A stretch of DNA of 32,732 nucleotides, taken from positions 1 to 32,732 of the IMG/VR virus record IMGVR_UViG_3300043466_000942, one strand, 5' to 3'. This stretch comes from a virus. Shown here one piece after another: positions 1 to 32,732 of this stretch; positions within the stretch are counted from its first letter, which is position 1, and the number at the start of each line of letters is the position of its first letter. The notes under the pieces are model-generated. The model did not search any database and had not been told where the DNA came from. It was given only the letters and a program-made list of their open reading frames with translations. The position numbers and the translations under genes were made by a program.

Positions 1-259
1 TAATCTGATGTATTCTTTGTTCTACTTCAGCTCTCACTTCCGTTCTACTCAACTTAGGGATTGTATATTCTAATAGCTTAAATGCTAATTCTAATGCAGC
101 TTGTGGGTCTTTCTTCTTAATCTCCTCCAAATCTTTCGATAGGGTTGATAAGGTATTATCTACTGCTCTTGCTATTGAAAGCTTAACCATCTCCGTAGAA
201 CGATTAACTGCTCCCTTTGGTCTTCCTTTACTTAGCTTATTTCCTTTTTCAAATGCCAT
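1..259 (-). CDS. Terminase small subunit, copy cut by the left edge
   Basis: This is the 5' 86 codons of the small terminase gene, starting at the ATG at 259 and running off the left edge. The complete copy is at 32057-32359. The one difference in this stretch (base 77) is synonymous. It is the assembly overlap, not a second gene. Confidence 0.85.
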   Translation of the reverse strand, partial: MAFEKGNKLSKGRPKGAVNRSTEMVKLSIARAVDNTLSTLSKDLEEIKKKDPQAALELAFKLLEYTIPKLSRTEVRAEVEQRIHQI

Positions 260-2505: not shown

Positions 2506-3018
2506 TTATAACATTCCGGCAAAAACTTCATCAAATTCTTTTTGTCTTTCTTTTACTTTATCTATAACCTGTTCCTGTTCTTGTTCTTTAGCTTTATCCT
2601 TAACTTGTTCTTGTTCTTGTTCCTTGGGGGTATCCATAGGGTATAGATAGGGTATAGATAGGGTAGCGATACCCTTAACATCTTTAATTAAATTTAATCC
2701 ATTTAATGTTTTAATTGCTGACAGAACTGCTTTATTTTTACTTTCTAAGAAATTATCTCCATACTGAATAGTGCAAAACTTATTAACTATCCATTTTTCA
2801 TCAGTAATTTTAGAAAGCTTTCCAGAGAATGTTTCTATTAAATCTTTTTCTGTTATATTAGTATTACAGAAGTAATTAAGATTTTTAATATTACTTAGCC
2901 ATATACCAGCATTATCACAGCTGTCTAATATGTAAATCCAAATTAATTTATAATCATTTGGTAATTGTGAGAACCATACATCGTTCCACTTGTTTGTATC
3001 AGTAAATCTTTTTGCCAT
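2506..3018 (-). CDS. Replication initiator-like protein (winged-helix/DnaD-like N-terminus)
   Basis: This is a 170-residue protein. The N-terminus (FTDTNKWNDVWFSQL, then YKLIWIYILDSCDNAGIW, residues about 5-41) resembles the winged-helix replication proteins of low-GC and Bacteroidota phages. After about residue 115 comes a highly charged linker with an internal duplication (KEQEQEQVKDKA, then KEQEQEQVIDKV), ending in a short acidic tail. Three tandem 11-bp repeats lie in the gene at the domain junction (2636-2668), reminiscent of lambda O, where the origin sits inside the initiator gene. The promoter at 3201-3231 and a structured leader lie upstream. I infer origin binding and helicase recruitment; no catalytic motif is expected or seen. 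Confidence 0.62.
   Translation of the reverse strand: MAKRFTDTNKWNDVWFSQLPNDYKLIWIYILDSCDNAGIWLSNIKNLNYFCNTNITEKDLIETFSGKLSKITDEKWIVNKFCTIQYGDNFLESKNKAVLSAIKTLNGLNLIKDVKGIATLSIPYLYPMDTPKEQEQEQVKDKAKEQEQEQVIDKVKERQKEFDEVFAGML
2636..2668. repeat. Three tandem 11-bp repeats inside the initiator gene (candidate origin iterons)
   Basis: The plus strand shows ATAGGGTATAG at 2636-2646, the same at 2647-2657, and ATAGGGTAGCG at 2658-2668. The array is flanked by inverted GGGTAT (about 2628-2633) and ATACCC (2669-2674). The 11-bp period would put each site on the same face of the helix. The array encodes IATLSIPYLYP, so a purely coding origin is possible, but exact repetition across different codons argues for selection on the DNA. 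Confidence 0.5.
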
Positions 3019-3093: not shown

Positions 3094-3194
3094 AAAAAAA
3101 TTAGAAAGGGGAGTATTTTCATGGCAGAAAGTAGATAGAATGTTACAAATATATCGTATCTTACTCCCCTTCTAATAAGCTAATCAACTATGAA
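3094..3194 (-). ncRNA. Candidate small RNA or transcription attenuator, loop-motif family member A
   Basis: A minus-strand promoter at 3201-3231 would start RNA near 3194. Almost at once comes a 14-bp stem (3162-3175 with 3101-3115, one bulged base) enclosing 46 bases, followed by seven T (3094-3100). This is the form of an autonomous RNA of about 95-100 bases ending at an intrinsic terminator, or of an attenuated leader for the initiator gene at 3018. The loop carries TATCTACTTTCTGCCAT on the minus strand, shared with two other intergenic stem-loops. Confidence 0.5.
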
Positions 3195-3200
3195 TTAATA

Positions 3201-3231
3201 CAAAGATACGAAATTAAATTCATATATCCAA
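3201..3231 (-). promoter_or_regulatory. Bacteroidota-type promoter upstream of the initiator gene
   Basis: On the minus strand TTGG (3228-3231) is followed after exactly 19 bases by TATCTTTG (3201-3208). This matches the known Bacteroidota primary-sigma consensus (TTTG near -33, TAnnTTTG near -7). The other two promoters of this type, at 4494-4524 and 5346-5376, have identical elements and identical spacing. Confidence 0.78.
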
Positions 3232-3234
3232 ATA

Positions 3235-3666
3235 TTATTTGTGTTTACAATTGTATCCATGCCATCTTTTATATAGAGGTAGAGATGTTTTAAATCCACA
3301 ATGTTCACATTTTACCATAACATTGTTTGGATGCTTTTTTGATTTAGCAGAAGCTTTACCACCAGCAATTGCATTTTTGATTGTTTCTTTTTTTGATAAT
3401 CCAAATATTCCAAATCCTTCTTCTTTAGAACGAGGACCTACTATATTCCCTATCTCTTTAGAAAGTTTTACTCTATCTTCTTTTTTCATAGAGTGAAATC
3501 CTAATTTATTATCTTTGGCTGTTTTACCACCTTTAGCTCCACCTATTTTTCCACCATTTGAACAACTTTGTTTAGTTCTATTTTCATTGATAGTAATTTT
3601 TTGAATAGTAATAGTATCATCACCTTTCATTGGGATATTACCCCATTGTATTTCTTTCTTAGCCAT
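3235..3666 (-). CDS. NUMOD3-like, zinc-finger DNA-binding protein
   Basis: This 143-residue basic protein starts at MAKKEIQWG; the ATG at 3666 overlaps the stop of the ATPase gene by 8 bases, and a TTG 9 bases upstream is less likely. The middle holds Gly/Lys-rich segments of the nuclease-associated modular type (SNGGKIGGAKGGKTAKDN, residues about 37-54; GGKASAKSKKHPN further on). The C-terminus is a Cys2-His-Cys finger, CEHCGFKTSLPLYKRWHGYNC. These parts are common in phage homing nucleases, but I see no HNH or GIY-YIG catalytic core. It is probably a DNA-binding accessory protein, or a nuclease remnant that lost its catalytic domain. Confidence 0.62.
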   Translation of the reverse strand: MAKKEIQWGNIPMKGDDTITIQKITINENRTKQSCSNGGKIGGAKGGKTAKDNKLGFHSMKKEDRVKLSKEIGNIVGPRSKEEGFGIFGLSKKETIKNAIAGGKASAKSKKHPNNVMVKCEHCGFKTSLPLYKRWHGYNCKHK

Positions 3667-4471
3667 TTTTAACAATTTGATTATTAACTAATGTTTTCCA
3701 CTTTGATGGATAGTTTTCTCTAATATCAGCTATCTTTGTAGCAACACGTGGAGTAATCTCATGTAAAGCTTTGTAATTATCTTTAATAAAATCAATTGTA
3801 TTATCAATAACTGTTTTTGAATAACCACCTTCCTTACCTTCACAATTTGTCCCTAACATCTCACAATCTTCAATTAGATGAATAGTGTACAATAACTTTT
3901 CTTGAGTGTTTAGATACACAGGAATGATATTAAAACGAGAACCAATAGCGTTCCAATGGTTCTTAGCTTTCTTAGCAATATCCTCAACCGTATCGTTTGT
4001 AATCCATATAATAGTACCTTGAAAATCAAAACTCATAGGTACTTCATTCTCTCTCATCAATTGGTTAGCTGATGCTCTTTCCCAACTAATCATTCTTTCA
4101 CCCTTAGTTACATCGGTAGCACCTTTTAACATATCTAATATTGCATTCTTTTCAGCTGGAGATTTATGGATAATATCACAGTCATCCAATACAACAACTC
4201 TACCTTTACCTCTATTTAAATAAAGTTTAACATAAAGTGCTGGTGCTGATATAGATGCACCTTTAATATATTCCACTCTCTTTTCAGCTTTAGCATCTGT
4301 AAATGCTTTTTTAACCCAATAGGTTTTGCCAGTACCAGCATCACCTGATACTAATAAACCTTTAAGGGCTGAATACTTTGGAGAAACGAATGATTTTGTC
4401 ATAGTGTAAACTGTATCGAATTTTTCAATTACATCGTTTACAACAGGGTTGAATTTGTTTGTCTTTTTCAT
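3659..4471 (-). CDS. AAA+ ATPase, probable helicase loader or replication ATPase
   Basis: This 270-residue P-loop ATPase has Walker A GDAGTGKT at residues 43-50, Walker B RVVVLDDCD at 91-99, a sensor-1-like WITND at 156-160, and an arginine-finger candidate in GSRFN (R179). There is no helicase or polymerase domain, and the size fits phage DnaC-like loaders or stand-alone AAA+ proteins. Its place at the head of the operon with the initiator-like gene suggests it loads or remodels a host helicase at the origin. A strong host-type promoter (4494-4524) lies just upstream, so it is probably among the first genes expressed. An untypical AAA+ role, for example in DNA transposition or packaging, is less likely. 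Confidence 0.8.
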   Translation of the reverse strand: MKKTNKFNPVVNDVIEKFDTVYTMTKSFVSPKYSALKGLLVSGDAGTGKTYWVKKAFTDAKAEKRVEYIKGASISAPALYVKLYLNRGKGRVVVLDDCDIIHKSPAEKNAILDMLKGATDVTKGERMISWERASANQLMRENEVPMSFDFQGTIIWITNDTVEDIAKKAKNHWNAIGSRFNIIPVYLNTQEKLLYTIHLIEDCEMLGTNCEGKEGGYSKTVIDNTIDFIKDNYKALHEITPRVATKIADIRENYPSKWKTLVNNQIVKNG

Positions 4472-24616: not shown

Positions 24617-27600
24617 TTATATAAATCTTTTTGCGTTTACAACATAAGCAGTTGTTGAATTTTCTGCTACAATTGATAACACATCTTTTATTCCACTACC
24701 AGATGATGGTAAGTAGAATGAACCAGATGGTTGTTTAATATTTGAACTAAATGATGCCGATGATACCGTACCAGTTGTTACAAAGATATTTGCATTCTCA
24801 CCAGGGTTTAAGTTAGTTACGTTAAAGTGTGTTGTTGCACTATTTGCTAAAGTTACAGTAAAGAAGTTTCCTGCATTCATATCAATTGATGCTGTGTTAC
24901 TTGCTACTGTTACTGCTACCACATTACCTTGCGCTGAACCAGTTATGATTATTGAACCAGTTATTACTGCAGAGCCTGTGAAAGGGAATTGTGTTAATCC
25001 TGCAACATTACTTCCACTAATAACATATAATGTATTAGGGTCTTTAGGTGTCAGCGATGAGTATGATGCTGAATCTAAAGTTACGATGTTATTAATTCTT
25101 GGTATAGTAGTATAAGTGTCCGTTACGTTACTTACAAATGAGCCACTAAATGTACCGCTTGTATAATAGTTGATAGAATTAAATCCTATTGAACCAGTGA
25201 TTCCTAATGAACCTGTAATCAATGCAGAACCAGTGAATGGGAATCCAGCTCCAGTTCCACCACTTCCACCAGCTAATGTTATAGATGCAGTGTTATCATT
25301 AATTGTAAGGGCTTGTACGGCACTTCCACTAAATAATAGATAAGTTGCTGTTCCTACATTTGTTGAACCAGAAGCAAATCCAAATGGTTGTGCTGATGTT
25401 CCGTTTGTACCATTAACTCCGTTTGTACCATTAATGCCGCTTGTACCATTTACTCCATTAGTTCCATCTAAGCCGCTTGTACCATTTACTCCATTAACAC
25501 CCGATGTTCCATTTACACCACTTGTACCATTTACTCCCGATGTACCATTTACTCCAGATGTACCATTTACTCCAGATGTACCTGATGAACCATTTGTTAC
25601 AGTTGAACCTGATACGATGTATAATGTATTGGGGTCTTTTGGTGATAATGCTGAGTAAGATGCTGAATCTAAAGTTACAATTCTATTTGCAGGTGCTACG
25701 TTTGTATAAATGTCACCTAATGTACTTACAACACTTCCACTTAAAGAAGCTGATGAAATTAATATTGAACCAGTTACACCTAAACTTCCAGTTATTTGTG
25801 CTGAACCAGAGAATGGGAAACCAGCTCCAGCTCCACCTTCAATCTTAATAGATGCTGTTGAGTTAGCTACACTATATGATTGAACTCCGCTTCCACTAAT
25901 TGAAATATATGTTGCAGTTCCAATTATATCACTTCCACTAGCAAATGTAAATGCAGTTGCTGACGTTCCAGATGTTCCCGATACACCGCTTGTTCCACTC
26001 AATCCAGAAGTACCATTCGTTGCGCTCAATCCAGAAGTACCTGATGTACCATTTGTAACCGTAGAACCAGAAACAATATAAAGTGTATTAGGGTCTTTTG
26101 GTGTAAGAGCTGCGTATGAAGCAGAATCTAAAGTTACTATCTTTTCTGCAGCCGGTACGTTTGTGTATGTATCACCTAAGTTTGTTACTACTGATGAACT
26201 AAATGAGCCACTTAATAATGTTAAGCTTCCAGTAACTCCTAATGAACCTGTTATTTGTGCTGAACCAGAGAATGGAAATCCACTACCTACTCCACTTATT
26301 ATAATTGATGCAGTTCCAGAATTTACAGTTGCAGTAACACCACTTCCACTAAAGTTTAAGAATGTTGCTGCTCCTTGCGCTGTACCTTCATCAGCTACCG
26401 TTAATATTGTTGTTAATCCAGATGTACCATTACTTCCATCTGCGCCTGATGTTCCATCAACCCCAGATGTTCCCGATACACCGCTTGTTCCGCTAACACC
26501 ATTAGTACCATTAATACCTGATGTGCCATCTACGCCTGATGTTCCGCTTACTCCGCTAGTACCATTTATTCCAGAAGTTCCATCAACTCCCGATGTGCCA
26601 CTAACACCGCTAGTTCCATCCACACCGCTCGTACCATCTATTCCAGAAGTACCATTACTTCCGTTTACACCGCTCGTACCATCTACGCCTGATGTTCCAT
26701 CAACTCCAGACGTTCCGTTGATTCCTGAGGTTCCTGATACCCCAGAAGTGCCACTAACTCCGCTTGTGCCGCTTACTCCTGATGTTCCTGATACGCCTGA
26801 AGTACCATCTACTCCGTTTGTACCATTCGTACCATCTATTCCAGAAGTGCCGTTAATACCGCTCGTACCATTGATTCCTGATGTGCCGTTTACCCCTGAT
26901 GTTCCATTAACTCCAGAAGTACCTGAAGTACCATTGAATACTAATGAGCCTGAAGGTATTGCTATTGGATAAGAATTTGAATTACCTACCCACACATATC
27001 CTTCTTGTATGTTTGGAAGTGTAGCAGGACCAGGGTTTAAAACTAAACCTTTTCCACCACTACCTTCTTTTGTTACTATTCCTAATAATTGTATAATTGC
27101 TGAACCAGTTGGTCTTATGTTTGTAAAACCACCACCTGCAGCTGCGTATATTTCAGCTCCTTCAGCGTATCCAGTTGTATTAACCGCATCTATCTGTCCT
27201 AATATAATACCTCTACCAGTATTTGCACTATTGATATTATCACCTATAATATATGTTACAGGCATTTTAGCTGGATTAGCAGCATCTGCTCTAAATACTT
27301 TTGGATTTGCTCCTACTGAACCTGATACATAAACAGGCGTTCCTCTTAATAAAGTTGTTGCTTCACCATTATATACCGTATCGTTTGTTGTATTAACATA
27401 TTGTAATGATAGATTACCATTACCATCCGTCTGAATAAAACTAAATTCACCATTGTCAACAGTTGGATATTTCAATCCACTAGCTGTTAATCCACCAACT
27501 AAGTTAGAACCTGATTGTACTGATAAAGAGCCTGTTATTGAAACTTGTCCAAATAGTAATTGTGTATCATTAGCTGCATCACCTAATTGGTTTGAGCCTG

Positions 27601-28621
27601 ATGAGTATATTACACTTGCTGTTTCTATTTGTACTAATAACTTAGATGCAGTTATATCACCTGTTACATTCAAACTACCATTTATTGTTTGGCTACCATT
27701 GAATGTATTAGAACCTGTTGTAGCGTAAGAACCAGTCTTAGCTTCCAAGTTTTGTATTCTACCTGTATTTGAAGATATGTTTCCTTCATCAGTTGTCAAA
27801 CGAGTTGATAGAGATGAAGATAAAGTATTTAATGAAGATGTACTTGCGTATGAGCCTGTTACACTAATTAAAGCGTTTACTTTAGCATCATTAGAAGCAG
27901 TATATGAATTGAATGAAGATGTTGTTGTATATGAGCCACTAACTGCTTGAAGTGAATCTACTTCAGCTATTAGAGTATCTATTTGTGCTTTTACCGAACC
28001 TGATACTACATTAATTCTATTATCAATTGATGTACTAACCGAATTGATTGTATTCACTAATGATTGAGATACAGCTGCAAGAGATGATGTAGTTGCGTAT
28101 GAACCAGTCACCGCTTGTAAAGAATCTACTTCAGCTTCTAATACATTAATCTCATTCGCAACACTTGCACTAAACACATTGTTTGATGCTGTATATTGGT
28201 TAATAGATTGTGTGAAAGCATTTATAGATTGTGTATATGCATTAAACGATGAAGTAGTTACTAAATTACTAATATCTACTGCAGTTGCGTTTACATTAAT
28301 TGTTGCTGTTGCACCTACTAAGGATGCAGTTATACTAGCTCCCACAAAGTTTAATGTAGTTGCTGCTCCTAATGATACACCTTCTTCTTGAATTACAACA
28401 CCACTACCTGATAGTACTAAGTTATCCACTTGAGCTTCTAACATTGCTATACTTCCAGAGAATGATGATGAATCTATATTGTATGAACTCTCATCAACTA
28501 AAGAATCAATCATGTCAGTATTGAATTCTCTTAATATTGTTGGAGTAATAGCACCTACGTTGTTATTAGGAAAACTACTTTGATTTTCAGCTTGTAATTG
28601 CGTTTTATTTAATTGAGACAT
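24617..28621 (-). CDS. Collagen-like modular tail fibre protein
   Basis: This 1334-residue protein is the largest in the genome. Residues 1 to about 340 are helical Ser/Thr-rich heptad units with repeats such as LEAEVDSLQAVTGSYATTSS, then a T4-fibre-like beta region (INGSLNVTGDITASK) and a conserved domain (TTLLRGTPVYVSGSVGANPK). From about residue 562 a collagen-like tract of Gly-Thr-Ser/Gly-Val-Asn triplets runs for about 170 residues. Then come three copies of a unit with FPFSGSAQITGSLGVTGS and LDSASYxALxPKDPNTLYIV, separated by shorter Gly-X-Y tracts. The C-terminal 90 residues form a head domain. It forms a long trimeric fibre. Confidence 0.82.
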   Translation of the reverse strand: MSQLNKTQLQAENQSSFPNNNVGAITPTILREFNTDMIDSLVDESSYNIDSSSFSGSIAMLEAQVDNLVLSGSGVVIQEEGVSLGAATTLNFVGASITASLVGATATINVNATAVDISNLVTTSSFNAYTQSINAFTQSINQYTASNNVFSASVANEINVLEAEVDSLQAVTGSYATTSSLAAVSQSLVNTINSVSTSIDNRINVVSGSVKAQIDTLIAEVDSLQAVSGSYTTTSSFNSYTASNDAKVNALISVTGSYASTSSLNTLSSSLSTRLTTDEGNISSNTGRIQNLEAKTGSYATTGSNTFNGSQTINGSLNVTGDITASKLLVQIETASVIYSSGSNQLGDAANDTQLLFGQVSITGSLSVQSGSNLVGGLTASGLKYPTVDNGEFSFIQTDGNGNLSLQYVNTTNDTVYNGEATTLLRGTPVYVSGSVGANPKVFRADAANPAKMPVTYIIGDNINSANTGRGIILGQIDAVNTTGYAEGAEIYAAAGGGFTNIRPTGSAIIQLLGIVTKEGSGGKGLVLNPGPATLPNIQEGYVWVGNSNSYPIAIPSGSLVFNGTSGTSGVNGTSGVNGTSGINGTSGINGTSGIDGTNGTNGVDGTSGVSGTSGVSGTSGVSGTSGVSGTSGINGTSGVDGTSGVDGTSGVNGSNGTSGIDGTSGVDGTSGVSGTSGVDGTSGINGTSGVSGTSGVDGTSGINGTNGVSGTSGVSGTSGVDGTSGADGSNGTSGLTTILTVADEGTAQGAATFLNFSGSGVTATVNSGTASIIISGVGSGFPFSGSAQITGSLGVTGSLTLLSGSFSSSVVTNLGDTYTNVPAAEKIVTLDSASYAALTPKDPNTLYIVSGSTVTNGTSGTSGLSATNGTSGLSGTSGVSGTSGTSATAFTFASGSDIIGTATYISISGSGVQSYSVANSTASIKIEGGAGAGFPFSGSAQITGSLGVTGSILISSASLSGSVVSTLGDIYTNVAPANRIVTLDSASYSALSPKDPNTLYIVSGSTVTNGSSGTSGVNGTSGVNGTSGVNGTSGVNGTSGVNGVNGTSGLDGTNGVNGTSGINGTNGVNGTNGTSAQPFGFASGSTNVGTATYLLFSGSAVQALTINDNTASITLAGGSGGTGAGFPFTGSALITGSLGITGSIGFNSINYYTSGTFSGSFVSNVTDTYTTIPRINNIVTLDSASYSSLTPKDPNTLYVISGSNVAGLTQFPFTGSAVITGSIIITGSAQGNVVAVTVASNTASIDMNAGNFFTVTLANSATTHFNVTNLNPGENANIFVTTGTVSSASFSSNIKQPSGSFYLPSSGSGIKDVLSIVAENSTTAYVVNAKRFI
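24920..26420 (-). repeat. Three fibre modules with collagen-like spacers
   Basis: Within the fibre gene, three copies of the module encoding SGSAQITGS ... LDSASYSALTPKDPNTLYIV lie at about 24960-25300, 25620-25900 and 26080-26400 (the PKDPNTLY codons are near 25030, 25630 and 26085). Gly-X-Y tracts at about 25395-25596 and 25960-26055 separate them. Boundaries are approximate. Confidence 0.7.
26417..26936 (-). repeat. Long Gly-X-Y (collagen-like) codon tract
   Basis: About 173 codons in which every third residue is Gly, mostly as Gly-Thr-Ser with Gly-Val-Asn, Gly-Val-Ser, Gly-Ile-Asn or Gly-Val-Asp. The DNA repeats are imperfect with mixed synonymous codons, so the tract has been kept at protein level while the DNA diverged. 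It should fold as a collagen-type triple helix in the fibre stalk. Confidence 0.85.
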
Positions 28622-32073: not shown

Positions 32074-32359
32074 TACTGCCGGTTTGGTTTATGTTTACTG
32101 TAATCTGATGTATTCTTTGTTCTACTTCAGCTCTCACTTCCGTTCTACTCAACTTAGGGATTGTATATTCTAATAGTTTAAATGCTAATTCTAATGCAGC
32201 TTGTGGGTCTTTCTTCTTAATCTCCTCCAAATCTTTCGATAGGGTTGATAAGGTATTATCTACTGCTCTTGCTATTGAAAGCTTAACCATCTCCGTAGAA
32301 CGATTAACTGCTCCCTTTGGTCTTCCTTTACTTAGCTTATTTCCTTTTTCAAATGCCAT
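32057..32359 (-). CDS. Terminase small subunit (probable)
   Basis: This 100-residue protein starts MAFEKGNKLSKGRPKGAVNR, a basic DNA-binding N-terminus (KGRPKGAVNRST) common in small phage packaging proteins, followed by a helical centre (TLSKDLEEIKKKD, AALELAFKLLEYTIPK) and an oligomerisation-like tail. Its stop overlaps the TerL ATG by 17 bases, which makes small subunit the best reading. The left end of the window holds a second partial copy (1-259) that differs at one synonymous base. Confidence 0.72.
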   Translation of the reverse strand: MAFEKGNKLSKGRPKGAVNRSTEMVKLSIARAVDNTLSTLSKDLEEIKKKDPQAALELAFKLLEYTIPKLSRTEVRAEVEQRIHQITVNINQTGSNGTND

Positions 32360-32732
32360 TGTTATTTCCTGTTATTTAAACATTTACTTATATTTTAACA
32401 CTCATATATAAAAATATATCTAAAGCCTATTTAAATGGATTGTTTAGGTTATCTTTGAGATGCTTCTTTACCTTCTTACAATTAAGGTAGACTGTAGATT
32501 TAGATAGCTTTAGTTCTGCTGCTAACTTCTCAAATGTCATCTCCTTATCAAATGCGTACATCTGATATATCTTAGATGGTGCCCATAAACGAGTTCTTTC
32601 TAATCGTTTAAGTTCATCCACTACTTCGTTATATGTGTTATCTATCTTCTCGTCTGAATCTATATTGTATTCTATTTCTACTTCATCATACGTGTCCGAA
32701 ATTTGTACATTCCTTTTGCCGGCTTTAATCCT
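32101..32732. repeat. Terminal overlap, right copy
   Basis: Same orientation as 1-632, with six transitions between copies (see the left copy). Covers most of the small terminase gene, the late-promoter-like element (32394-32403) and the 3' end of the ECF-like sigma gene. Confidence 0.93.
32427..32732 (-). CDS. ECF-like sigma factor, copy cut by the right edge
   Basis: This is the C-terminal part (from about residue 78) of the protein encoded completely at 327-863. The reading frame stays open to the window edge. The two copies differ at five bases in this stretch, one of which changes a Val to Ile near residue 97. It is an assembly overlap, not a second gene. Confidence 0.8.
   Translation of the reverse strand, partial: RIKAGKRNVQISDTYDEVEIEYNIDSDEKIDNTYNEVVDELKRLERTRLWAPSKIYQMYAFDKEMTFEKLAAELKLSKSTVYLNCKKVKKHLKDNLNNPFK

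Follow-up and report, generated by a model that had tools for sequence, protein, structure and literature searches.

An origin of replication located within the gene of its own initiator is a layout that is already known. In phage lambda and the lambdoid Stx phages, ori lies in gene O, where binding sites in the middle of the gene adjoin a tract encoding a charged stretch, and each iteron is a pair of inverted half-sites, TCCCT and AGGGA, at a distance of 12 bp; purine-rich DNA containing AAAAGAAAAAAGAAAAG comes after them (PMC7466680). The rep gene of plasmid pSK41, of the RepA_N type, encodes a winged-helix N-terminal domain and carries its Rep boxes centrally; its linker is encoded by the origin DNA and is dispensable as protein, and a separate C-terminal domain is present (PMC5703833). 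In gene 38 of phage SPP1, compared here by description, direct repeats and an unwinding region make up an intragenic origin, oriL, with a second origin, oriR, located elsewhere (PMC6316719).

Here, we analyzed the whole of a 32,732-base virus record, IMGVR_UViG_3300043466_000942 (the window), in which an array of half-sites and an adjoining purine-rich tract lie inside the gene of a predicted initiator. We consider it probable, at roughly 85%, that array and tract form the phage's replication origin and act by the mechanism proposed below. As in lambda, candidate binding sites in mid-gene adjoin a tract encoding a charged stretch and, as in pSK41, they are central in a gene whose N-terminal domain is a predicted winged helix. 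Lambda, however, has four 18-bp iterons 20-24 bp apart, whereas the window has single half-sites every 11 bp, which need not be palindromic. Lambda O matches the Pfam profile Phage_rep_O at 5.7e-36, whereas the window protein matches neither Phage_rep_O nor RepA_N at E≤1, and none of 68 relatives matches either profile (PF04492, PF06970) at E≤0.01; judged by such searches, the initiator family is one with no Pfam profile match. A profile comparison of the window protein with lambda O gave a probability of 0.1, that is, no detectable relation, and no lambda P-like gene was recognised after the initiator gene. The first-pass annotation had likened the locus to lambda O, and with no Phage_rep_O match and an empty profile comparison this likeness holds for the layout, with its mid-gene repeats, but not for protein ancestry. 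The window protein also differs from RepA_N proteins in being phage-borne and in having no recognisable C-terminal domain, and from pSK41 rep in that the putative origins of its relatives can also sit outside the gene. Literature searches in an open-access library brought up no description of this initiator family, nor of any intragenic origin array with an 11-bp step. New to us are the family itself, the pitch of 11 bp with single half-sites, the pairing of repeat word and residue, and the combination of coding and non-coding placements.

The phage genome and its initiator gene

The record carries portal and terminase genes (profile matches), and its ORFs are coded almost wholly on the minus strand. 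The ends (1-632 and 32101-32732) form a near-identical 632-base repeat with 6 mismatches at a spacing of 32,100, and the record probably represents a nearly complete phage genome that is circular or terminally redundant. Scanning the window with Rfam and a tRNA search gave no matches, and cumulative GC skew declines almost steadily and does not turn around 2650, which lends an origin there no support, although the measure is uninformative in a genome coded almost wholly on one strand.

The initiator gene (3018..2506, minus strand) encodes a 170-aa protein of the MAKRFTD family, called from its ORF, an AlphaFold model, winged-helix matches, and the PHROG matches of relatives. The model (mean pLDDT 75.5, with blocks of 87-95 over residues 11-110) predicts a winged helix at ~20-87, a helix at 96-107, a hairpin at 111-120, and a charged low-confidence tail, the linker probably being disordered; the model of a relative, L092 (a Chitinophaga chungangae locus), shows the same helices. 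Residues ~20-87 align to winged helices of ORC2, Cdc6, and the CRP type at Z 6.6-7.4, values that common arrangements reach too, and the BFVD matches include replisome organizers, with weak E-values. A sequence-profile search of solved structures returned no relevant match. The C-terminal parts of several relatives match PHROG 'replication initiation protein' profiles, while the window protein has a short tail only, ending EFDEVFAGML. This EFDEVF motif (2506-2540) resembles EFDKMF at the end of the next small gene (2330-2360), both on the minus strand; the common motif is found on only those two ORF ends in the window, is kept in several near relatives, and is possibly a shared docking tail.

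Upstream of the gene, a promoter-like motif, TTTG-N20-TATCTTTG (3201..3232, minus strand), was read from the sequence and aligns in relatives L003, L013, L005, and L007; it resembles promoters of the Bacteroidota type. Between this motif and the initiator start, a hairpin with arms of ~15 nt and, after it, a T run (3101-3175, minus strand) may be an attenuator in the initiator leader, and near relatives have different G-rich/C-rich inverted repeats at its position. An AAA-type ATPase gene (4471..3659, minus strand) matches phrog_1250, of unknown function. This gene and 3663..3235 were considered as a helicase-loader partner and rejected, since each was found only in the window's own locus and their absence from the other fetched loci means that neither is a conserved partner. 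No recognised helicase or loader lies beside the window's initiator gene, which speaks against an origin here; speaking for one, DnaB-like helicase genes lie downstream of the initiator in two relatives, at 17 bp in L067 and 719 bp in L098. SPP1, in contrast to the window, encodes its own helicase and loader.

An array of half-sites on an 11-bp pitch

The array (2627..2675, no strand assigned) comprises five half-sites in 11-bp steps, namely GGGGT at 2627, AGGGT at 2638, 2649, and 2660, and an inverted ACCCT at 2671, and we propose these as initiator-binding iterons. The repeats lie within the initiator gene, between the predicted DNA-binding domain and the remainder, where they would serve as binding sites; the AlphaFold model agrees with the first-pass annotation, which had set them between the winged-helix-like N-terminus and the charged linker. 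It had also described a repeat present twice exactly and then once with a change, and indeed the window holds two exact copies of ATAGGGTATAG, starting at 2636 and 2647, after which comes ATAGGGTAGCG. Where it counted three iterons, however, the coordinates stand but the number becomes five half-sites on an 11-bp grid. In its coding-strand form, TATNNATACCC, the repeat has three copies in the window, all in the array, with none elsewhere on either strand. Self-match of at least 26 positions per 33-nt stretch at lags of 7-25 is found at three places in the window, of which the array is one; the remaining two are 18-bp repeats within the long ORF 28621..24617. Those repeats, at 25400-25600, encode a GTSG-type repeat. 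None of 2000 protein-preserving codon shuffles of the window gene reached the observed match at lag 11 or lag 22.

The family was sampled as the best 80 of 515 and the best 80 of 568 confirmed viral loci, plus 13 genome loci. After removal of sequences at least 97% identical, 68 of 94 ORFs were kept for the first lag-11 test, in which self-match in the linker DNA exceeded protein-preserving shuffles at z=19, with z=14.8 for the nearer 22 ORFs and z=16.2 for the farther 46; multiples of 11 stand out too. A test fixed beforehand was then applied to 37 further loci (<90% identical). For this set, 6 of 80 loci were dropped (contig already in the set), Pan5 (L100) was added to give 75, and 38 of these were removed, being either too short or at least 90% identical across their first 100 residues. 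Lag 11 again stood out (z=10.5), and 17 of the 37 single loci lay above 95% of their own shuffles (16 in a rerun), whereas 300 control ORFs from the same contigs gave z=-0.1, with 11 of 300 above 95% of shuffles. Because relatives enter these z-values as if they were independent, the figures serve for orientation rather than as exact probabilities. Pairs of half-sites occur directly repeated at 11, 22, and 33 and inverted at 9, 11, and 13; by a pair score defined after seeing the data, 73 of 105 deduplicated loci reached p≤0.05, and the 32 that fail weigh against an origin. In the 169-locus set used for period and word counts, which includes near-duplicates, runs of at least three in strict 11-bp steps were found in 62 loci, compared with 6 of 507 shuffled copies. 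Periods of 7-10 and 13-17 gave 0-5 loci, and periods 6, 12, and 18 were also high (70, 55, and 47 loci), which we put down to the hexamer linker.

Such regularity could in principle come from repeat slippage or functionless drift toward low complexity, and the neighboring KDKD/EQEQ linker is indeed of low complexity with a period of 6. Yet the 11-bp pitch stays constant while the words differ, the inverted copies are in phase, and the 300 control ORFs show none of the features of the array, which leaves this explanation a negligible probability. On the evidence of these loci, the array layout is shared by many phages, most of them uncultured. A search of 50,697 phage records gave one clear match, Pseudanabaena phage Pan5 (gene Pan5_50); a scan seeded with L089 alone gained one locus, and a plasmid collection queried with L092 gave no match.

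Constraint on the DNA and the adjoining tract

If selection kept the peptide LSIPYxYPIDTPKEQ, the DNA repeat could be a by-product of a repeated peptide; I122, Y124, T130, and P131 are among the residues conserved in 28 near relatives, and longer arrays do yield a repeated peptide at 33-bp steps. However, the shuffles that preserve the protein fall far below the observed match, and rare synonymous codons are frozen. Across the 28 near relatives, synonymous identity is 0.887 in the array codons versus 0.645 in the N-domain, and CCC spells P131 in all 26 rows that have Pro there and P123 in 22 of 22, even though it makes up 3% of Pro codons in the 22 ORFs of the window; ACC for threonine is likewise conserved over the array, despite being 7% of Thr codons. 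The bases free to vary within each unit are the NN of TATNNATACCC. A step of 11 bp shifts the reading frame relative to the repeat, so that these bases occupy different codon positions from unit to unit: in one unit their variation exchanges L/P/G/T/Q, whereas in another it touches third bases with silent or near-silent effect. Together with the occurrence of the element in non-coding DNA, described below, these features make a by-product of the peptide highly improbable. As the first-pass annotation had anticipated for an origin, relatives keep the DNA repeats while the encoded residues vary, which is borne out by the synonymous constraint and the NN positions. Synonymous constraint, shuffles, and non-coding copies all indicate that the constraint acts on the DNA and not on the encoded peptide. 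In L176 (4001-4400), the linker reads QGQG instead of KDKD, with similar AAGGAC-type DNA in another frame, as is expected if the DNA is kept and the peptide is not.

Adjoining the array is a purine-rich hexamer tract (2540..2626, minus strand) of CAAGAA/AAGGAT/GATAAA type, which is 79% purine on the coding strand and encodes the KEQEQEQ...KDK linker. We propose that it is an unwinding or strand-specific loading tract. A thermodynamic unwinding element is not supported by a 60-bp stability scan, the window tract being no easier to melt than the genome average, and the linker DNA of 81 relatives, at 68.3% AT, barely exceeds the 67.0% of the 5′ portion of their genes; both results count against an origin. 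AAGRAY hexamers, a motif chosen after looking, number 172 against 128 expected. Plasmid Rep proteins that have two winged helices attach to a single strand of the repeated DNA in the unwinding region (PMC4081077), and by analogy one-strand binding would suit a hexamer tract with such strand asymmetry better than easy melting as such.

The array and tract are not confined to the coding sequence. In one subclade, the initiator is without both array and charged linker, and six records have the array and a GATAAA-type tract as non-coding DNA, kilobases from the initiator; in three of the records analyzed (L080, L085, and L086), the array is found 2.4-3.7 kb upstream, right after the stop of another ORF, with a GATAAA-type tract immediately behind it. 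Scanning for the tract only in 16 array-less records gave four matches, three of them with an ACCCT/AGGGT array directly before the tract and the fourth (L171, with V95) with a degenerate array, compared with 0 of 16 for a reversed-pattern control; in the other 12 of the 16 the tract pattern was not found, a result that counts against an origin. Another subclade (L142, L148, L149, L154, and L173) has an intergenic copy besides the coding copy, with a shorter one in L066, an arrangement paralleled by the oriL/oriR pair of SPP1 (PMC6316719). ACCCT runs of at least three occur only 7 times in 1.45 Mb outside the initiator genes of 218 loci, and 5 of these adjoin a tract. Given the non-coding and duplicate copies, the most fitting reading of array and tract is a single DNA element, translated in most cases but not in all, and their presence as non-coding DNA appears to be the strongest evidence that they form an origin.

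It is unlikely that the array is instead an operator, through which the initiator or a repressor controls transcription or copy number while replication starts elsewhere. Three AGGGT/ACCCT half-sites without a tract do occur in two relatives (L167, 728-765; L259, 866-903), between a promoter-like motif and a same-strand ORF upstream of the initiator, and these are possibly an operator for autoregulation. In contrast, the window array is intragenic, >500 bp past the promoter-like motif, and arrays are paired with the hexamer tract in both coding and non-coding DNA, when an operator needs no tract.

Repeat word, proposed mechanism, and meaning

The repeat word differs by clade (ACCCT, GCCCC, GCACC in L169, ATGAT in L060, L064, L065, and L067, and AGACT in L095), with the pitch unchanged. 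Of all N-domain columns, 95, 96, and 98 share the most mutual information with the word, and residue 95, where a predicted helix begins, changes together with it. Among loci with His98, all 59 with GCCCC have N95, and 27 of the 29 with ACCCT have S or C95, the exceptions (L079 and L159) having mixed arrays. On the best tree, built without these three columns, there are nine independent word differences, of which residue 95 agrees in seven and opposes in none. Well-supported branches carry only two of the independent word/residue pairs, however, and ancestry confounds word and residue 95, so this covariation is good rather than conclusive evidence. The window protein has V98 and N95 with ACCCT, and the rule of the His98 group therefore does not apply to it. 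The rule was written down before a further scan of 50 new loci, which returned 39 with S95 and ACCCT, none with GCCCC, 8 with S95 and 2 with V95 that have no clear in-gene array, and one that is cut; this is a weak test, because no N95 locus was found and most of the new loci are close to one another.

The covariation also bears on whether the array could be another cis-acting phage site, for packaging, partition, or plasmid-prophage maintenance. A conserved DNA site with intergenic copies would suit such a role, and ORF 2..259, presumably the small terminase from its place beside the large-terminase gene, lies ~2.4 kb away; the array, however, stays with the initiator gene in varied surroundings, and its word changes in step with residue 95 of that initiator, so a site of this kind is very unlikely. 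Comparison among the relatives, at the level of sequence, establishes a DNA-level element with an 11-bp pitch, paired with a tract, placed also in non-coding DNA, and with covariation of word and residue. The interpretation as an intragenic origin, made in the first-pass annotation, gains support from the conservation of DNA over residues, the non-coding copies of array and tract, and the covariation of the word with residue 95.

Binding by the window protein, strand opening, helicase recruitment, and origin activity are what we infer beyond this comparison. In the proposed mechanism, the N-terminal winged-helix region of the initiator would bind the half-sites, which return to one face of the helix at 11-bp intervals and may point either way, and the initiator would coat these phased half-sites by analogy with lambda O, pSK41 Rep, and SPP1 gp38. 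Once bound, the array would act on the hexamer tract beside it, either opening it or loading onto one of its strands, and host helicase would be recruited through the C-terminal part of the protein; that the short tail of the window protein serves for this recruitment is a guess. The charged low-complexity linker would then be largely origin DNA that happens to be translated.

Extended to the relatives, we see about even odds of a large uncharacterised initiator family with a helical-pitch code, in which there is one half-site per 11 bp in free orientation, the word is set by a few residues where one helix begins (95, 96, and 98), the KDKD/EQEQ linkers are mostly translated origin DNA, and the origin can leave the gene or duplicate into non-coding DNA. 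Sequence alone could then suffice to locate the origins of uncultured phages. For a phage group with hardly any cultured members, the analysis identifies a probable replication origin, and the 11-bp array offers a sequence rule for finding further origins. If the claim for the tract is true, a common low-complexity feature of proteins would be explained by the function of DNA and not of protein. Natural pairs of loci, one with the putative origin in the gene and one with it elsewhere, offer a clean separation of the role of the DNA from that of the linker peptide.
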